A stretch of DNA of 51,077 nucleotides from Helicobacteraceae bacterium. GTDB taxonomy: Bacteria > Campylobacterota > Campylobacteria > Campylobacterales > Sulfurimonadaceae. Of the stretch, positions 27,311 to 34,852 are shown in pieces. How positions within the stretch are numbered: position 1 is the stretch's first letter; every line of letters begins with the position of its first letter. The stretch spans positions 1-51,077 of the forward strand of contig JAMONY010000013.1 in NCBI GenBank assembly GCA_027066325.1. The letters are read 5' to 3'. The notes below the pieces were generated by a model, which saw only the letters and a program-made list of their open reading frames with translations, searched no databases and was not told the origin of the DNA. Both the position numbers and the translations under genes were made by a program.

Positions 27311-27826
27311 ATGAAGCTTCAAATCATAAGATATCCAGATAAAAAACTAAGAGAAGTTTCACATAGAGTCACATCGTTTGATGCTTCACTACACTCTTTT
27401 TTGGATGAGCTATATGGTGTTATGTTGGAGTCAAATGGTATCGGGCTAGCAGCGATACAAGTATCTAAGGCGGTGCGAGTATTTATCATAAACCTACCAG
27501 ATGAAGATGGAAATCAGCTAGAGGAGAATAAGATAGAGTTTATTAACCCTGTCATAGTCTCATCAGATGGTAGTGTAGAGTATGAAGAGGGGTGTTTGAG
27601 TGTCCCTAGATTCTATGAGAGTATAGAGCGCTATGAGAGCATAGAGTTAGAGTATAGGGATCGAGATAATCTCAAAAAAAGTTTATCGGCAGATGGTCTG
27701 TTGAGCATAGCTATTCAGCATGAACTAGACCATCTAGATGGTAAGTTATTTATAGATAAGCTCTCATACTCTAGGCGTAAAAAGTTTGAAAAAGAGTATA
27801 AACAGGCTCAAAAGAGCAGGTCATGA
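27311..27826 (+). CDS. def: Peptide deformylase
   Basis: Removes the N-formyl group from new proteins. All three motifs are intact: GIGLAAIQV, EEGCLSVP with the metal-binding Cys, and QHELDHLDG with the HExxH metal site. The 171 residues are normal. Its stop overlaps the comM start (ATGA). Confidence 0.97.
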   Translation: MKLQIIRYPDKKLREVSHRVTSFDASLHSFLDELYGVMLESNGIGLAAIQVSKAVRVFIINLPDEDGNQLEENKIEFINPVIVSSDGSVEYEEGCLSVPRFYESIERYESIELEYRDRDNLKKSLSADGLLSIAIQHELDHLDGKLFIDKLSYSRRKKFEKEYKQAQKSRS

Positions 27827-29331
27827 AGCATCTAAAGTGTGCTACGCTTGAGGGCATAGAGGCACTTGAGGTAGATGTTGAGTCTACTCTCACTAGAGGA
27901 CTGCCATCTTTTACCATTGTAGGCTTAGCATCCAATGCTATCTCTGAAGCTAGAGAGAGAGTTAAAAGTGCACTTCTTGCCAATGATTTTACATTTCCAC
28001 CAAAGCGTATAACTATCAACCTAAGTCCTAGCGATATATCTAAGAGTGGCTCACAGTTTGATCTATGTATAGCCCTTCTTATCGCTTTAGATAGTAGTGA
28101 TGTTGAGTTTGATGGTTGGTTTGTATTTGGTGAGTTGGGGTTAGATGGAGTTGTCAAAGAGAATAGCATACTCTACCCACTCATATTATCTTTAGCAAAT
28201 CAAGGTGTGCTACTTAGAGCGGTTGTGCCAGAAGAGTCTTTACCAAAAGTCTCAAATATTCCAAATATTCAGTTTTTAGGAGTTAAAAATCTAAGTAATG
28301 CTATAGAATTTTTTAGTCAAAGTAGTCCAGATGCTACCCTGCAAACAGCAACTCCTATAGCACACCCGCACCAAGAGGTGTCAGGTGATAGATACTATTA
28401 TGAGCAGAGTTATTATGAAGACTTTAGAGATATCAAAGGTCAGGAAGTTGCCAAGAGAGCAGCGCTTATTAGTGCATGTGGGCTTCATAATCTACTGCTA
28501 GAAGGTAGTCCAGGATGTGGCAAATCCATGGTAGCAAAGAGAGTTCGCTATATACTACCGCCCGTGAGCACTCAAGAGCTATTAGATATAGCCAAACTAG
28601 ATGCTCTTGATGGTAAAGAACCACACTTTAGACCACTGCGACCATTTCGTTCTCCTCACCATAGTGGTACACCAGCCTCTATATTTGGCGGAGGTAGCAC
28701 AAAGGCACGCATAGGTGAAGTTGGTTTAGCACATGGCGGGGTGTTATTTTTTGATGAGTTGCCACACTTTAGTAAAAGTGTTTTAGAGGCACTTAGGGAG
28801 CCACTTGAAGATAAACGCATTCGTATATCACGCGTGAACTCCAAAGTAGAATATCCAACTGATTTTCTATTTATAAGTGCTATGAATCCGTGTCCATGTG
28901 GCAACTTGTTGAGTGAAGATCTTGATTGCAGGTGTAGTGATCTTGAGATTAGGCGCTATAAATCACGCCTCTCTGATCCATTTTTAGATCGTATAGATCT
29001 GTATGTTCAGATGCAGAGTGTGCGAGCGGATGATAGCTCCAGTGTGAGCTCAAAAGAGCTTCATGAGATAGTCTTGAGAGTACACAAAACCCAACGCCAA
29101 AGAGGACAAAGTGCTCTAAATGGTGCGCTTAATGATGAGCAGATTGAGCGAATATGTCTACTTAGTGGCGAGGCGGAGTCTATTCTCTTTCAAGCTGTTA
29201 GTAGATACTCTCTCTCATTTAGATCGATCAAGAAGATTCAAAAAGTTGCAAGAACCATAGCAGACATAGATAACTCAAACGGTATTGAGCAGAAACATAT
29301 TTTAGAGGCGTTGAGTTATAGGCGCAGATAA
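27823..29331 (+). CDS. comM: YifB/ComM-family Mg-chelatase-like AAA+ ATPase
   Basis: In transformable bacteria ComM is a helicase aiding branch migration during DNA uptake. The N-terminal lobe RGLPSFTIVGLASNAISEARERV is diagnostic, the Walker A is LEGSPGCGKSMVAKR, Walker B is GVLFFDELPHF, and the C-rich NPCPCG followed by CRC loop is typical of the YifB family. The 502 residues are normal. It overlaps def by four bases and is followed nine bases later by the first acyl carrier protein, linking housekeeping and biosynthetic genes. Confidence 0.94.
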   Translation: MKHLKCATLEGIEALEVDVESTLTRGLPSFTIVGLASNAISEARERVKSALLANDFTFPPKRITINLSPSDISKSGSQFDLCIALLIALDSSDVEFDGWFVFGELGLDGVVKENSILYPLILSLANQGVLLRAVVPEESLPKVSNIPNIQFLGVKNLSNAIEFFSQSSPDATLQTATPIAHPHQEVSGDRYYYEQSYYEDFRDIKGQEVAKRAALISACGLHNLLLEGSPGCGKSMVAKRVRYILPPVSTQELLDIAKLDALDGKEPHFRPLRPFRSPHHSGTPASIFGGGSTKARIGEVGLAHGGVLFFDELPHFSKSVLEALREPLEDKRIRISRVNSKVEYPTDFLFISAMNPCPCGNLLSEDLDCRCSDLEIRRYKSRLSDPFLDRIDLYVQMQSVRADDSSSVSSKELHEIVLRVHKTQRQRGQSALNGALNDEQIERICLLSGEAESILFQAVSRYSLSFRSIKKIQKVARTIADIDNSNGIEQKHILEALSYRRR

Positions 29332-29340
29332 GGAGTAGTG

Positions 29341-29610
29341 ATGGTAGGTTCAAAAGATAGTGAACTAAAGCTAAAGTTAAAAATGATGATCATTGAAGAG
29401 TGTGAAAAAGATGAGATAGATGTAGATGATATAGCAGATGATCTAGAGCTATTTTCACCACAAAGTGGACTTGAGCTAGACTCATTGGATGCTCTTCAGA
29501 TCTCTTTGGGACTTCAAAATAACTTTGGAGTGCGCATTGCAGATCCAAAGGAGTTTAGAAGAGTTGTTGTAAGTATCAATACCTTAGCAGAGTATATACA
29601 GCCTAAGTAA
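29341..29610 (+). CDS. Acyl carrier protein 1 of type II polyketide-like cluster
   Basis: A small acidic protein of 89 residues with the phosphopantetheine-attachment site LELDSLDAL, serine S48. The ATG at 29341 is preferred to the GTG at 29338 because AGGAG at 29331-29335 is five bases away. It is clearly different from housekeeping AcpP (longer N-terminus, FSPQSGLELDS). The stop shares a base with the next gene's start (TAATG). It is expected to carry the growing chain for the ketosynthases that follow. The phosphopantetheinyl transferase is not in the window. Confidence 0.88.
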   Translation: MVGSKDSELKLKLKMMIIEECEKDEIDVDDIADDLELFSPQSGLELDSLDALQISLGLQNNFGVRIADPKEFRRVVVSINTLAEYIQPK

Positions 29611-30752
29611 TGCAGCAGAGTACTAAGATCCTAGATTCACAGATATTGTGTGCTTTAGGTGAGAACAGCAGAGCACTACAACACCTTAGAGATGGCACAA
29701 CAGAGCTAAGTAGCAAAGAGATAGATTCTGATCTGTTGCAGATTCGTTATCCGTACTATAGCATAGAGCCCAAAGAGCACAACTTTGGTCTATCTGTATC
29801 GTTAGAGTATATCTTTGATGTAGTGGGCAAGCTTTTAAGTAGATCAGATTTGAGTGCAGATGAGCATAAAAATATGGCCATATTTTTTGGATGTGCAAGC
29901 ATAGACCTATCTGTAGCGGAGGTGTTGCAATATAGTCTTGATGAGAGTTTTGAGTCTACTCTATGCTCTAAGCGCATAGGGAGTGGCTACTATGCAGAGG
30001 CTATCGCATCAAAATTTGGCATAGATGGACTCTGTTTTACCTACAATACAGCGTGTACTTCAAGCGCAAATGCTCTATTGGATGCAGACTTAATGCTCAA
30101 GAGTGGGGCTATACAGCATGCGCTTATTGTAGGGTTTGAAAGCTATGCTCCAACAACAGTTGAGGGGTTTAGCGTGATGGGTCTTCTGTCACAAAACTGT
30201 TGTAGCCCGTTTGATATAAATCGTGATGGCATTGTATTGGGTGAGGCGGTTAGTGCAGCAATTTTAAGCTCTAATGGCTCTAGTGACTGGACTCTTTGTG
30301 GTGGTAAGAGTAGTTGTGAGACTCACTCTATCACAGGTACAAGCGCAGATGGTATCGAGATAGCAAAAGTTATGCAAGGTGCGCTAGAGAATAGCTCTTT
30401 AAGAGCAGAGCAGATCACGCTTATAAAAGCACATGCAACAGCAAGTGCTCTAAATGATACAGCAGAGATCAATGCTATGAGATCACTATTTGGCAATACT
30501 ACACCCTTTATCTCACTAAAACCCTACATAGGACATACACTTGGTGGATGTGCTTTGGCAGAGTTGGTGCTGATGATGCTTGCGGTTGATGATGGATTTG
30601 TGCCAAAATCTTTAAACTTCATAGAGGGTGAGTCCAGTGATATGTCACCTCTTTGTGAGATAGCGAGTGTTGATGGTGGAGTGTTTATGATGAACTATTT
30701 TGGTTTTGGTGGGAACAATACATCGTTTATAGTTAGTAAGAGTAGAGCATGA
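29610..30752 (+). CDS. Beta-ketoacyl-ACP synthase (KS1) with intact triad
   Basis: A decarboxylating condensing enzyme of the FabF/FabB thiolase fold, 380 residues. The nucleophile is C149 in NTACTSSAN, the histidines are H275 in IKAHATASALND and H309 in YIGHTLGG, and the glycine-rich end is NYFGFGGNNTS. The second motif is unusual (HATAS in place of HGTGT), a divergence seen in ketosynthases of secondary pathways. It is coupled to the ACP before it (TAATG) and to the half-KS after it (ATGA). It probably pairs with that half-KS. Product unknown. Confidence 0.88.
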   Translation: MQQSTKILDSQILCALGENSRALQHLRDGTTELSSKEIDSDLLQIRYPYYSIEPKEHNFGLSVSLEYIFDVVGKLLSRSDLSADEHKNMAIFFGCASIDLSVAEVLQYSLDESFESTLCSKRIGSGYYAEAIASKFGIDGLCFTYNTACTSSANALLDADLMLKSGAIQHALIVGFESYAPTTVEGFSVMGLLSQNCCSPFDINRDGIVLGEAVSAAILSSNGSSDWTLCGGKSSCETHSITGTSADGIEIAKVMQGALENSSLRAEQITLIKAHATASALNDTAEINAMRSLFGNTTPFISLKPYIGHTLGGCALAELVLMMLAVDDGFVPKSLNFIEGESSDMSPLCEIASVDGGVFMMNYFGFGGNNTSFIVSKSRA

Positions 30753-31612
30753 TCTACATAAAAGCACTCTCAACTTACCACTCACTAAAGCGTATCGATA
30801 CTAAGCAGACTTTAAAAGAGCTAACAGGTAAGATATTTCGCCGAAGTGATAGATTTACACAATTAGCACTGATGGGCGCACATGTAGTAGCAGATAGCCA
30901 AAAACTAGATGATAAGTGTGCCCTATATCTTACATCAGCGCAAGCAAATCTAGCAGTTTTTAACCGCATAAGAGATCAAAAATATCTACACAATCAACTT
31001 CCGCGACCTGTGGATTTTATAAACATGTTAAGTGGATCTGCAAGTTTTTATGTAGCAAAACATCTGGGCTTAAAAGGTAAAAATATCTCACTGTCTCACT
31101 CTGGATTTGCTGCCCAGATGAGCCTGATAGTAGCTAGTAGCGAGTTGAGGTCTGGCAACTCAACGCAGGTACTCTTTGGTGGAGTTGATGAGCTTGTAGA
31201 GCCACTTAGTCTACACCAGAAAATAGCTGGCGTAGAGCCAAGTGTGAGTCTTGCAGAGGGGAGTAATTTTCTACTACTTAGCCAAGATGCTCAAGACGCT
31301 TTAGGCGCTATTGAATTAAGCTATAAGCAGCACAGTAGTAGTGAGATGATAGCAGTCATCAAAGAGCATAAAGATTTAGATTGTATCAGTTTTAGTGCGC
31401 GTATATCTCAATCTCAAAGAGATAATATGTTGGCTGGACATGAAGTATTTGAAGTTGAGAGTGGATATTATGAGACTGCTGTACTCTTTGTTGTAGCGGA
31501 GTTTTTAAGGTCTCAAGATAGTGGTGATAAGATGCTATTTGTAGATAGGTATAATGATAGATATATGAGTACTTTGATCCATAAGATGCCAAAAGGGAGA
31601 GGTAGTGAGTAG
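30749..31612 (+). CDS. Cysteine-less half ketosynthase (KS2), possible chain-length factor-like partner
   Basis: This 287-residue protein resembles the N-terminal lobe of a ketosynthase: NMLSGSASFYVAKHLGLKG, then SLSHSGFAAQ (114-123) where active KSs have TACTSS, then an SELRSGN helix, FGGVDELVEPLS, and SLAEGSNFLLLS in place of the usual GEGAAALVLE. No Cys is present at the nucleophile position, and the histidine-bearing C-terminal half (NAHGTGT, GHTLG) is absent. It therefore cannot catalyse condensation itself and likely acts as a scaffold or length-determining partner of KS1. It starts in an ATGA overlap with KS1 and overlaps the GTG start of KS3. Confidence 0.75.
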   Translation: MIYIKALSTYHSLKRIDTKQTLKELTGKIFRRSDRFTQLALMGAHVVADSQKLDDKCALYLTSAQANLAVFNRIRDQKYLHNQLPRPVDFINMLSGSASFYVAKHLGLKGKNISLSHSGFAAQMSLIVASSELRSGNSTQVLFGGVDELVEPLSLHQKIAGVEPSVSLAEGSNFLLLSQDAQDALGAIELSYKQHSSSEMIAVIKEHKDLDCISFSARISQSQRDNMLAGHEVFEVESGYYETAVLFVVAEFLRSQDSGDKMLFVDRYNDRYMSTLIHKMPKGRGSE

Positions 31613-33368
31613 AGTCTTTATAAATGCGTATGCATCACATAGTTGCGTGGGAGCAGATAGTGAGCTTATGCAGAGTATATATGCAAAAAAGAGTGGTGTT
31701 AAGAGTGATGGTGAGTATATCAGCAGTAAAAGTGTAGCTATTGGAAAGTTTAATGATATTGAATTTTTTGATGCTCTTAGTAGAGCCACATCACAACTAT
31801 TAAGTAGCTCCTCTTTGAAGAGTTTTGCTGATACACTCTTGATTGTGGGCTCTTCAGTTGGTGGCATGGCAACTAGTGAGAAGGTCTATTTTGCTACAGG
31901 CTCTTATGAACAGATAGATCCAGCTTTGCATACCATCAGTGTCATATCAGACATGTTAGATAGAGAGTTTAAGTTTAAGCAGAGCAGGTCAGTATCAACT
32001 GCTTGTACCTCAAGTGCTAATGCTCTAATATTAGCACATCGACTTATCAAGCTTGGGGTATATCGCTCTATTGTTGTGGTGGGTGCAGATGCACTTTGTC
32101 ACACTACTGTTTGTGGATTTGACTCACTTGGAGTACTTAGTAGTAGTGCTTGTAGACCATTTGACATTGAGCGCGATGGCATGAATGTAGCAGAGGCAGT
32201 TGCGGCGATACTGCTACAAGATGAGATGACAGATGAGAGCATAGAGTTGGTTGGTTGTGGGGCAAGTTCTGATGCTTTTCATATAACCAATCCAGATCCA
32301 GAAGCCAAAGGTGCTATTGCTGCGATGTGTGCCGCACTTGATGAGGCTGGAGTTGATGCTAGCATGGTAGACTATATTAATGCGCACGGTACAGGTACAG
32401 AGGCAAACGATAGTGTAGAAGCTCTAGCGATCTCTAAGGTGTTTGATAAAACATCTACATATGTAAGCTCTACTAAAGCCATCACAGGACATACGCTAGG
32501 AGCTGCGGGAGCACTTGAGGCGATAGTGAGTTGTGAGGTACTAAAGCAGCAGCTCATACCTCCACAGTCTGCTTTAAAGACTCAGCAAAATGGTGATATA
32601 TCTCTTCTTAAAGAGCCTCTTAGTAGTTGCGTGAAGTATGTGCTATCTAACTCATTTGCATTTGGCGGAAATAATACATCACTACTATTTGCTCTACCTC
32701 AACAAAAGAGTGCTAAGGTGGCTGCATCTAAATGCAAAAACTTTAAGATCGTATCATCTGCGCAGATAGACTCACCTCTTAAGATAGACTCACTAAACGA
32801 AAAAGAGTTGGTACCAAAGATGATGTTGCGTCGTCGCTTAACGCGTCTAGCACGCATAGCTATCTATCTAGCAGATCAGTGCTCATTTAGAGATGGGCTC
32901 ATTGTATTTGGTAGTGCTTATGGTGAGCTTAAAGCCACTGCTGATATCACAACAGCAATATTTAACAAAGAGCCCATAAGCCCAACATCTTTTCAAAACT
33001 CAGTCTACAATACTGCTGCTTCATATCTATCTCTACTACACAATAATCAAAATGAGATCATCACTATCTCAAGTGGACTTAAGACCTCACAAGATCTGCT
33101 CAAAACAGCAGCTCTTCAAGCCACCTACCACAATAGAGCTGTACTCATCATATGTGCAGAAGCCCTTAATATACCAAAGATAGATGAGTTAGATTGTAAG
33201 ATAGATCTACTAGAGCAGGGCGTGGCGATACTGATAGAACCTACAGATGATGAAGCAGAAGTTTGCAACAAAAAAGGCTCACCACACAGCCCATCTTCAT
33301 CTTTGTATGATATGTTGGATATAATATCGAACAAAAAAGATGGTAGCATAATCTCACTGGAGCTTTAG
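31605..33368 (+). CDS. Ketosynthase fused to a chain-length-factor-like domain (KS3-CLF)
   Basis: Residues 1-380 are a complete FabF-type ketosynthase with C134 in STACTSSAN, H261 in NAHGTGT and H296 in TGHTLG, ending NSFAFGGNNTS. Residues about 400-587 are a second domain with RRRLTRLARIA from about 407, FGSAYGEL (435-442) and SPTSFQNSVYN (459-469). This pattern is that of the beta-ketoacyl synthase N-terminal-like family (Pfam 13723) called chain length factor in arylpolyene clusters, where it is normally a separate protein. The GTG start at 31605 has a GGGAGAGG site. The 587-residue length agrees with a fusion. Confidence 0.82.
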   Translation: MSRVFINAYASHSCVGADSELMQSIYAKKSGVKSDGEYISSKSVAIGKFNDIEFFDALSRATSQLLSSSSLKSFADTLLIVGSSVGGMATSEKVYFATGSYEQIDPALHTISVISDMLDREFKFKQSRSVSTACTSSANALILAHRLIKLGVYRSIVVVGADALCHTTVCGFDSLGVLSSSACRPFDIERDGMNVAEAVAAILLQDEMTDESIELVGCGASSDAFHITNPDPEAKGAIAAMCAALDEAGVDASMVDYINAHGTGTEANDSVEALAISKVFDKTSTYVSSTKAITGHTLGAAGALEAIVSCEVLKQQLIPPQSALKTQQNGDISLLKEPLSSCVKYVLSNSFAFGGNNTSLLFALPQQKSAKVAASKCKNFKIVSSAQIDSPLKIDSLNEKELVPKMMLRRRLTRLARIAIYLADQCSFRDGLIVFGSAYGELKATADITTAIFNKEPISPTSFQNSVYNTAASYLSLLHNNQNEIITISSGLKTSQDLLKTAALQATYHNRAVLIICAEALNIPKIDELDCKIDLLEQGVAILIEPTDDEAEVCNKKGSPHSPSSSLYDMLDIISNKKDGSIISLEL

Positions 33369-33369
33369 A

Positions 33370-33624
33370 TTGATAACAACAGATAGATTAAAAAGTGATA
33401 TTGTAGAGCTATTTGAACTTGATCAAAATACCAATATAGACAACAGCGAGCCTCTGTTTGGCGATGGACTTGGACTTGACTCTGTTGATGCTATTGAGCT
33501 GAGTATCTATCTTGATAATACTCACTCTATCACAATTACCAATTTAGCTGATACACAGAACATATTTGCCTCTATCGACACTTTGGTAGAGTTTATAAAT
33601 AGCACTGGAGAGAAGAGTGCATAG
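33370..33624 (+). CDS. Acyl carrier protein 2 of the cluster
   Basis: An 84-residue carrier protein with the site GLGLDSVDAIEL, serine S38. It starts with TTG at 33370, supported by GGAG at 33359-33362 seven bases upstream and one base after the KS3 stop. Its last eight bases overlap the next gene's GTG start. Two carrier proteins in one cluster is a trait of arylpolyene-type systems, where they serve different stages. Confidence 0.85.
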   Translation: MITTDRLKSDIVELFELDQNTNIDNSEPLFGDGLGLDSVDAIELSIYLDNTHSITITNLADTQNIFASIDTLVEFINSTGEKSA

Positions 33625-34000
33625 ATTGCCACATCAGCCACCAATCAGGTTTGTAACACAGATACTTGACTCACAAGAGCAGAGTGCGAAGTGTCAAGTA
33701 AGCTTTAGCTCAAAACCAACTCTAGCTATGATCATAGAGGCAGCTGCACAGAGTTCTGTCTACATGAAACTTACCATATATAAAGAGGCATTGGGTATCA
33801 AATCTGGTGAGTTGGTTCAAGGCATGTTGCTTAAGATGAGTGCAAAACAAAGAGGTAGTCTACATAGCGGCAAGATGATCATAAGCACAAGCTATGTAGC
33901 CAACTACAGACATTTTTTTGAGATAAATTTTGAAGCTGTAGTAGATACTCATATAGTAGCAGACGGGAAGATCAATATTTTATTGGGAGATGAGAGTTGA
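33617..34000 (+). CDS. Hotdog-fold dehydratase-like subunit A (Glu-bearing)
   Basis: A 127-residue protein starting at GTG 33617 with a GGAG site. The opening RLPHQPPIRFVTQIL matches the N-terminus of FabZ/ApeP-type hotdog dehydratases (LPHRYPF type) and the central helix is MIIEAAAQSSVY with E41, the FabZ catalytic-acid position. The loop with the catalytic His (HFPxxPxxPG) is deleted. It therefore probably needs the next gene product to supply the histidine. Its stop overlaps that gene's TTG start (TTGA). Confidence 0.78.
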   Translation: MHRLPHQPPIRFVTQILDSQEQSAKCQVSFSSKPTLAMIIEAAAQSSVYMKLTIYKEALGIKSGELVQGMLLKMSAKQRGSLHSGKMIISTSYVANYRHFFEINFEAVVDTHIVADGKINILLGDES

Positions 34001-34320
34001 GCCTGCTTAGTGATGATATCTATACTCTTGTGAGCAGGGATGGCAATATCATAGTTATAGAGCTAGCAGATGCCACTCACCCAGTCTTTAAGGCACATTT
34101 TCCATCAAACCCTCTTCTACCAGGATATATGCAGATAGATATCTTGGCAACACTTTTGCAAGTAGATGTCTGTGAAGTTGTAAGTGCTAAGTTTATGAAG
34201 ATAGTGCGCCCTAAAGAGAGGTTAACTTTTACAGTTAGCTATAAAAATACTCAATTAAGAGCAACCATAACAGATAGCTCACAAAGAAAAGTCTCTGCTC
34301 TTAAGTTACTTACTGCCTAA
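33997..34320 (+). CDS. Hotdog-fold dehydratase-like subunit B (His-bearing)
   Basis: A 107-residue protein that begins with TTG in a TTGA overlap and has GGGAG upstream. It contains HPVFKAHFPSNPLLPGYMQIDIL, split here as HPVFKAHFP and NPLLPGYMQID; H34 is the FabZ-type catalytic histidine and D48 stands where Glu is usual. This resembles ApeI of arylpolyene clusters. Subunits A and B carry complementary halves of the FabZ catalytic dyad, suggesting a heterodimeric 3-hydroxyacyl-ACP dehydratase. A ketoreductase is not adjacent. Confidence 0.78.
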   Translation: MSLLSDDIYTLVSRDGNIIVIELADATHPVFKAHFPSNPLLPGYMQIDILATLLQVDVCEVVSAKFMKIVRPKERLTFTVSYKNTQLRATITDSSQRKVSALKLLTA

Positions 34321-34378
34321 TCTGCTAGCTATCTGTACAGCTCTGCTACTTCTTACGGGTTGTAGTGTCAAGTCATCA

Positions 34379-34852
34379 ATGAGAATCACAGATCAGAAGC
34401 GGATGGCTCTTGAGAAGATGCTACTTGAATTAGATGGTAGAGTTTTAAAGAGAGAAGCACATGAGTTAGCCTCAAGTGCACTACTGCACACAAAAGCTCT
34501 ATCACATAGATACGCTCTTGTATCACCACCTCTACTACACAACACACTTGTAAATATTGGTTTAAGAGATAGGGGTTTATGTTATGAGTACGCCTATGAT
34601 CTACTTGAGCACCTTAGAGCCCAAAACTATAGAAGTTTTAAGTTCTATATAGCAGGCTCAAAGATAGGCACCTATTTTGAGCACAACTCACTAGCAGTAG
34701 GGTTTAGAGATGGTAGGTTTGAAGAGGCTATTATCTTAGATCCATGGAGGGAGTCCGGAGAGCTCTATTTTATACACATAAGAGATGATGAGTATGAGTG
34801 GAGCAGTCGTGAGCATCTACTAAAACTCATTAAAATCTCTCCCCAAATCTAA
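34379..34852 (+). CDS. Probable lipoprotein with papain/transglutaminase-like Cys-His-Asp pattern
   Basis: From the first ATG (34379) the protein has 157 residues with C68 in RGLCYEYAYDLL, H102 in YFEHNSLAV and D121 in IILDPWRESG, the order and spacing of a transglutaminase- or papain-like triad. In the same frame just upstream, codons 34322-34375 encode LLAICTALLLLTGCSVKSS, a lipoprotein signal peptide with lipobox LTGC, but the open frame back to 34271 has no ATG, GTG or TTG. The real start may therefore be a non-standard codon, for example CTG at 34313 or 34322. It immediately follows dehydratase subunit B. The role in the cluster is unknown. Confidence 0.72.
   Translation: MRITDQKRMALEKMLLELDGRVLKREAHELASSALLHTKALSHRYALVSPPLLHNTLVNIGLRDRGLCYEYAYDLLEHLRAQNYRSFKFYIAGSKIGTYFEHNSLAVGFRDGRFEEAIILDPWRESGELYFIHIRDDEYEWSSREHLLKLIKISPQI

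Follow-up and report, generated by a model that had tools for sequence, protein, structure and literature searches.

The window, that is, the whole 51,077-nt stretch of DNA analysed here, contains a tight run of seven genes that overlap or are separated by gaps of a few bases. Within this run, a single open frame encodes a ketosynthase (KS) followed by a half-size chain-length factor (CLF) (Table 1). The fused gene overlaps the preceding gene by 8 nt and has AGGGAGAGG upstream of its main start, and the strand opposite to it is full of stops. Its neighbours include two acyl carrier proteins (ACPs), a second ketosynthase (KS1) with a short CLF-like partner, and two dehydratase-like proteins. 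The polyene operon begins directly after comM, which lies whole in the window (27823–29331). In two genus mates (G010 and G036), comM is present in two pieces ~17 kb and 36 kb apart, as if separated by inserted elements, and in none of the four genus mates inspected do the operon or the downstream genes of the window lie beside comM. Just past the operon, a 157-aa protein (34379–34852) gave no Pfam or NCBIfam match. In a promoter and terminator scan of positions 29000–34700, promoter-like sites were no commoner than in shuffled sequences.

Table 1. Positions of the operon genes, of the parts of the fused gene and of the Streptomyces plasmid proteins used for comparison
Feature	Position	Strand	Remarks
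Acyl carrier protein 1	29338..29610	+	PF00550 just under cut-off; NF006617 E=3.5e-11
Second ketosynthase KS1	29610..30752	+	Cys-His-His present
Short CLF-like partner of KS1	30749..31612	+	287 aa; 4-nt overlap with KS1; CLF-like fold
Fused KS-CLF gene	31605..33368	+	587 aa; GTG start; open frame
Ketosynthase domain, ApeO-like	31605..32696	+	~residues 1–364
C134 codon	32004–32006	+	KS active site
H261 codon	32385–32387	+	KS active site
H296 codon	32490–32492	+	KS active site
Linker LPQQKSAKVAASK	32694..32732	+	~residues 364–376, ~13 residues; coil in model
In-frame GTG, residue 372	32718..32720	+	only plausible internal start, would give a free 216-aa CLF; ribosome-binding context is weak
Half-size chain-length-factor domain, ApeC-like	32733..33365	+	~residues 377–587; PF13723 match 32817–33164
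Acyl carrier protein 2	33370..33624	+	Pfam
ApeP-like dehydratase partner	33617..34000	+	PF22817 18.8 bits, below cut-off 27
ApeI/FabA-like dehydratase	33997..34320	+	PF07977 26.9 bits versus cut-off 23; PF22818 21.5 versus 28.5
Double-KS protein, Streptomyces plasmid	L121 5653–8007		full-size, KS-CLF-like; type II-like cluster
Double-KS protein, Streptomyces plasmid	L123 2530–4893		full-size, KS-CLF-like; type II-like cluster

The original prediction of a KS and a CLF-like domain within one protein agrees with this single frame. The predicted triad C134, H261 and H296 is present at exactly these positions, as is K291, and with all four residues kept the KS part looks active, as far as its sequence tells. 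A Pfam scan of the fused protein placed ketoacyl-synt at residues 76–206 and Ketoacyl-synt_C at residues 214–322. The prediction had staked its case on a match of the C-terminal part to Ketoacyl-synt_2 (PF13723), and the scan found one at residues 405–520, scoring 79.0 bits versus a cut-off of 25 (E=5e-22). Pfam detected no further domains in the chain beyond the KS and the ~210-aa CLF part. The two C-terminal motifs named beforehand, RRRLTR and SPTSFQNSVYN, start at residues 409 and 459, respectively. A chance match to PF13723 is ruled out by its score and by motifs that are common to all aligned relatives. No Cys occurs between residues 426 and 517 and hence the CLF domain lacks a thiolase-type nucleophile. 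VIA-align provided a good test for residues 1–367 of the fused protein only. The proposed nature of the C-terminal part, an APE-type CLF partner, is likewise borne out by sequence matches in the PDB, the only solid ones being 7f28_A and 6qsp_B. The KS part best matches 7f28_B and 6qsp_A, which are the partner chains in these two entries; going by these matches, each part of the fused protein corresponds to one member of the ApeO-ApeC pair. In the accessible text of PMC8358021, ApeC is a CLF of about half the size of a KS, which has one thiolase fold and forms a heterodimer with ApeO.

The 287-aa protein encoded between KS1 and the fused gene gave no Pfam match above cut-off. Its best AlphaFold model (pLDDT 80.7; the other four ranging from 70 to 45) matches best 6kxe_B, 6kxd_B, 6kxf_B and 6smo_C, all of them CLF subunits, from the ishigamide synthase and from AntDE. 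Based on this resemblance of the model, the protein is probably the CLF of KS1. Seven related loci (L023, L024, L026, L027, L029, L031 and L032) likewise encode a protein of this type next to KS1, and comparison with the CLF domain of the fused protein by hhalign yielded a probability of 31%. These proteins probably constitute a second type of short CLF, one that no family model covers.

Further genes for a polyene pathway reside on contig C68 of the same genome (L098, 9411–15561), which encodes an aromatic amino acid lyase, a ketoreductase, a third KS, a small membrane protein, an acyltransferase and an AMP-binding enzyme (AMP-ligase). The order of the first five is the same as in L031, a relative in which lyase, ketoreductase, KS, membrane protein and acyltransferase form one larger, intact cluster with the operon genes. 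Since counterparts of the first five C68 genes share one cluster with the operon genes in L031, the pathway looks complete but split over two contigs, judging from gene content. Of the traits of an aryl polyene cluster, two ACPs and a KS are present in the operon, and ketoreductase, KS, lyase and AMP-binding enzyme lie on C68. Concerning the dehydratases, the ApeP- and ApeI-like matches remain under the Pfam cut-offs and the FabA match lies above.

The original prediction had also called for a survey of separate versus fused arrangements across Campylobacterota, and this survey located the fusion in one genome only. Within the family, PF13723 gave 33 matches in 32 of 228 genomes, 32 of which are without a fused frame; the frame around the match spans 596 codons in the window versus 199–247 in the others. 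The phylum sample yielded 75 matches in 73 of 397 genomes, and 74 of these are unfused, in frames of at most 278 codons. A fused frame was found in none of the 31 other matching genomes of the family and in none of the 72 of the phylum sample. Searching the order (398 genomes) with the whole protein returned 45 matching genomes at E ≤ 1e-100, among which solely the match in the window is stop-free over its full length; in G567 and G558 the match extends across both KS and CLF but is interrupted once, by an in-frame stop that separates the two. Two loci, L021 and L022, were first taken for fusions, as two tblastn matches covered the whole query, but the frames show two overlapping genes in each. 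That the fusion is common in Campylobacterota is ruled out by these counts, i.e. one of 33 family matches, one of 75 phylum matches and one of 45 matching order genomes, in samples that share genomes and are not independent. None of the seven other genomes of the genus has a PF13723 match; they contain weaker KS matches only. The KS of the closest relative is 60% identical to the KS of the window, and the junction is seen in one genome only. In a KS tree, rows from the window's family group with Sulfurovum MAGs, and the KS of the window takes no settled position.

The linker of the fused gene lies where the KS genes of relatives end and their CLF genes begin. We compared this junction with 32 relatives, comprising 30 of the 32 other family matches (two are without a locus) as well as L021 and L022 from two named Sulfurovum MAGs. 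In all 32, the KS tail after the FGG-x-N motif measures 8–11 residues, and the distance from this motif to RRRL in the CLF is 124–134 nt and never a multiple of three. In all six clusters with the same gene order, the KS stop and the CLF start overlap by 4 nt (ATGA) and the motifs are 125 nt apart, as compared to 153 nt, in frame, in the window, whose additional residues read LPQQKSAKVAASK. To obtain the joined frame from the arrangement in the syntenic relatives therefore needs a net gain of ~28 nt. The letters at the junction are AAATGC in the window versus AATGA in relatives, and thus a KS tail that had been extended earlier, followed by a slip of one base, could also account for it. Nine further loci from the order search were inspected; in two of them (L112 in G567 and L113 in G558) the KS gene and the half-size CLF gene share a frame and are separated by only one stop codon, which puts them one step away from a fusion. 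Together with the same-order clusters, they reveal that separate KS and CLF genes exist both overlapping and in the same frame.

For conservation of the two parts, alignment A1 was built from 21 loci carrying both genes and contains 17 KS rows and 17 CLF rows, in the latter of which the aligner misplaced the first few residues; L029, L035, L037 and L039 were left out. In L029 (9143–10893 in genome G128, the same place as L008), a frame shift breaks the KS gene and the adjoining CLF gene is intact. The ratio of CLF identity to KS identity is 0.94–1.03 for the window compared to the six syntenic clusters and 0.77–1.03 compared to all 17 relatives. Among the relatives themselves, it averages 0.89 with a range of 0.68–1.06 (36 pairs with KS identities of 50–65%). 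As CLF identity keeps pace with KS identity, the CLF part is not decaying.

Taken together, we consider it likely that the gene encodes a natural single-chain ApeO-ApeC pair, composed of a KS and a half-size CLF, of a pigment-making, aryl-polyene-type type II polyketide synthase (PKS). The fusion appears to be real, and the enzyme is probably functional. An assembly or base-call error, behind which the true sequence would be two overlapping genes as in relatives, is unlikely. Although the genes are separate in all 32 relatives measured and a one-base difference at the junction would be enough to split the frame, the excess of the window over the six same-order clusters amounts to 28 nt rather than a single one, and these extra nucleotides read as a linker; one base-call error alone therefore fails to explain the fusion. 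In addition, the conserved motifs are kept in both domains. Ten housekeeping proteins of the window were compared to curated models and all proved to be full length, and ComM aligns over 502 of 502 residues with five of the seven genus mates, being split in the other two. Given these intact proteins, indel errors are rare in the window.

A genuine single-chain gene might also give rise to a free CLF through internal initiation at the GTG of residue 372, resulting in a mixture of fused and separate enzyme or in CLF domains swapped between chains. The product would be as long as its counterpart in L022 (216 aa) and differ little from that of most same-order clusters (214 aa). However, there is no good ribosome-binding site at this GTG, whereas the main start has one in AGGGAGAGG, and the ATG used by relatives at this place is no longer in frame. 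We hence regard internal initiation as quite improbable.

AlphaFold2 modelled the fused chain with a pLDDT of 92.2 and a pTM of 0.94, placing a coil at residues 364–376. The chain was already joined in this prediction and the 17 KS rows and 17 CLF rows of the input alignment were kept separate (unpaired), which is why the closeness of KS and CLF in the model is partly imposed. When the model was submitted to Foldseek, the KS-CLF didomain of PfaC (6riw) took fourth place in the ranking by E-value. It aligns with most of the chain at an rmsd of 7.2 and reaches a TM-score, relative to the query length, of 0.77, as compared to 0.56–0.58 for the remaining chains shown, whose length is about that of a single KS. 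The intramolecular dimer interface that the original prediction had considered possible fits these results, because the joined-chain model is confident and aligns with the natural PfaC didomain; the modelling supports, short of proof, that the fused protein pairs KS and CLF intramolecularly. For the KS-CLF of gammaproteobacterial PUFA synthases, pairing within one chain has been proposed (PMC13311796, accessible text). In the fused protein, the tether would hold KS and CLF at a fixed 1:1 ratio. That the C-terminal domain is instead a leftover without CLF role, the KS acting as a homodimer, is conceivable inasmuch as a half-size CLF by itself lacks an active site and KS homodimers are common, but it is highly improbable in view of a CLF conservation that keeps step with that of the KS, the retention of all core motifs and a model that sets the CLF domain confidently against the KS.

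For the single-chain pair, the families of the enzymes involved suggest the following scenario. A carrier protein would pass the starter or the growing polyene to C134 of the KS domain, which would then catalyse decarboxylative condensation with malonyl-ACP via H261, H296 and K291. The CLF domain of the same chain, itself without catalytic activity, is predicted to pack at the usual thiolase dimer face and may bound the acyl pocket of the KS. Between rounds, the ketoreductase encoded on C68 would carry out reduction and the dehydratases of the operon dehydration, and the third KS on C68 may act as well. Many rounds would yield a conjugated polyene, the starter of which is probably aromatic and provided via the lyase and the AMP-binding enzyme. 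As to its origin, two overlapping, translationally coupled genes may have acquired net ~28 nt, which joined the frames and created the ~13-residue linker. A benefit could be that the tether blocks exchange with KS1, the CLF of KS1 or the third KS. That it indeed insulates the fused pair from the second CLF and the two further KSs of the same cell, allowing three KS systems to share two carriers without subunit exchange, is a tentative and rather doubtful proposition.

Balanced expression of the two subunits is often difficult to achieve for the KS-CLF heterodimers of type II PKSs. The 587-residue chain, which contains both parts, offers a KS-CLF encoded by one gene, ready for experiments on how the CLF controls chain length. 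Moreover, the fusion provides a worked example of overlapping, translationally coupled genes turning into one enzyme, with steps that are visible in relatives, i.e. overlapping genes in different frames and two genomes in which the frame is the same and one stop lies between.

No report of a fused ApeO-ApeC was found in the literature searched, whose reach mostly excluded subscription papers, and the accessible portions of PMC8358021, PMC13311259, PMC13311796, PMC10132072 and PMC12664062 do not mention one. The fused protein shares with ApeO-ApeC (6QSP, 7F28; PMC8358021, as far as its text is accessible) the KS family and the half-size CLF family PF13723, and its operon is of the same kind, with two ACPs and dehydratases. 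However, ApeO and ApeC are two polypeptides that form a heterodimer, whereas here one chain of 587 aa with a linker combines both. The ishigamide enzymes Iga11/Iga12 (6KXD-F) are likewise a polyene-making KS-CLF, and the neighbouring 287-aa protein is predicted to fold like Iga12, but the Iga subunits are separate. A tblastn search of a plasmid collection revealed, among the best 15 of 1196 records, at least two Streptomyces clusters with two-KS-domain proteins of 784 and 787 aa, which weakens the idea that the fusion is unique among type II clusters. As in the window, two KS-type domains reside in one protein, and the L121 cluster has a discrete ACP, a ketoreductase and dehydratases; the second domain of both proteins matches PF13723, and one of these two matches exceeds the cut-off. 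In contrast to the protein studied here, however, these proteins come from Actinomycetota, have a full-size second domain and are annotated simply as KS. PfaC of the PUFA synthases (6RIW; accessible text of PMC13311796) is a natural KS-CLF fusion in one chain as well, but its CLF is full-size, not of the half-size PF13723 kind, and is part of an iterative type I megasynthase. Thus, the single-chain KS-CLF varies an enzyme pair that is already known and does not constitute a new kind of enzyme; its novelty lies in combining a free-standing KS with a half-size CLF in one chain.
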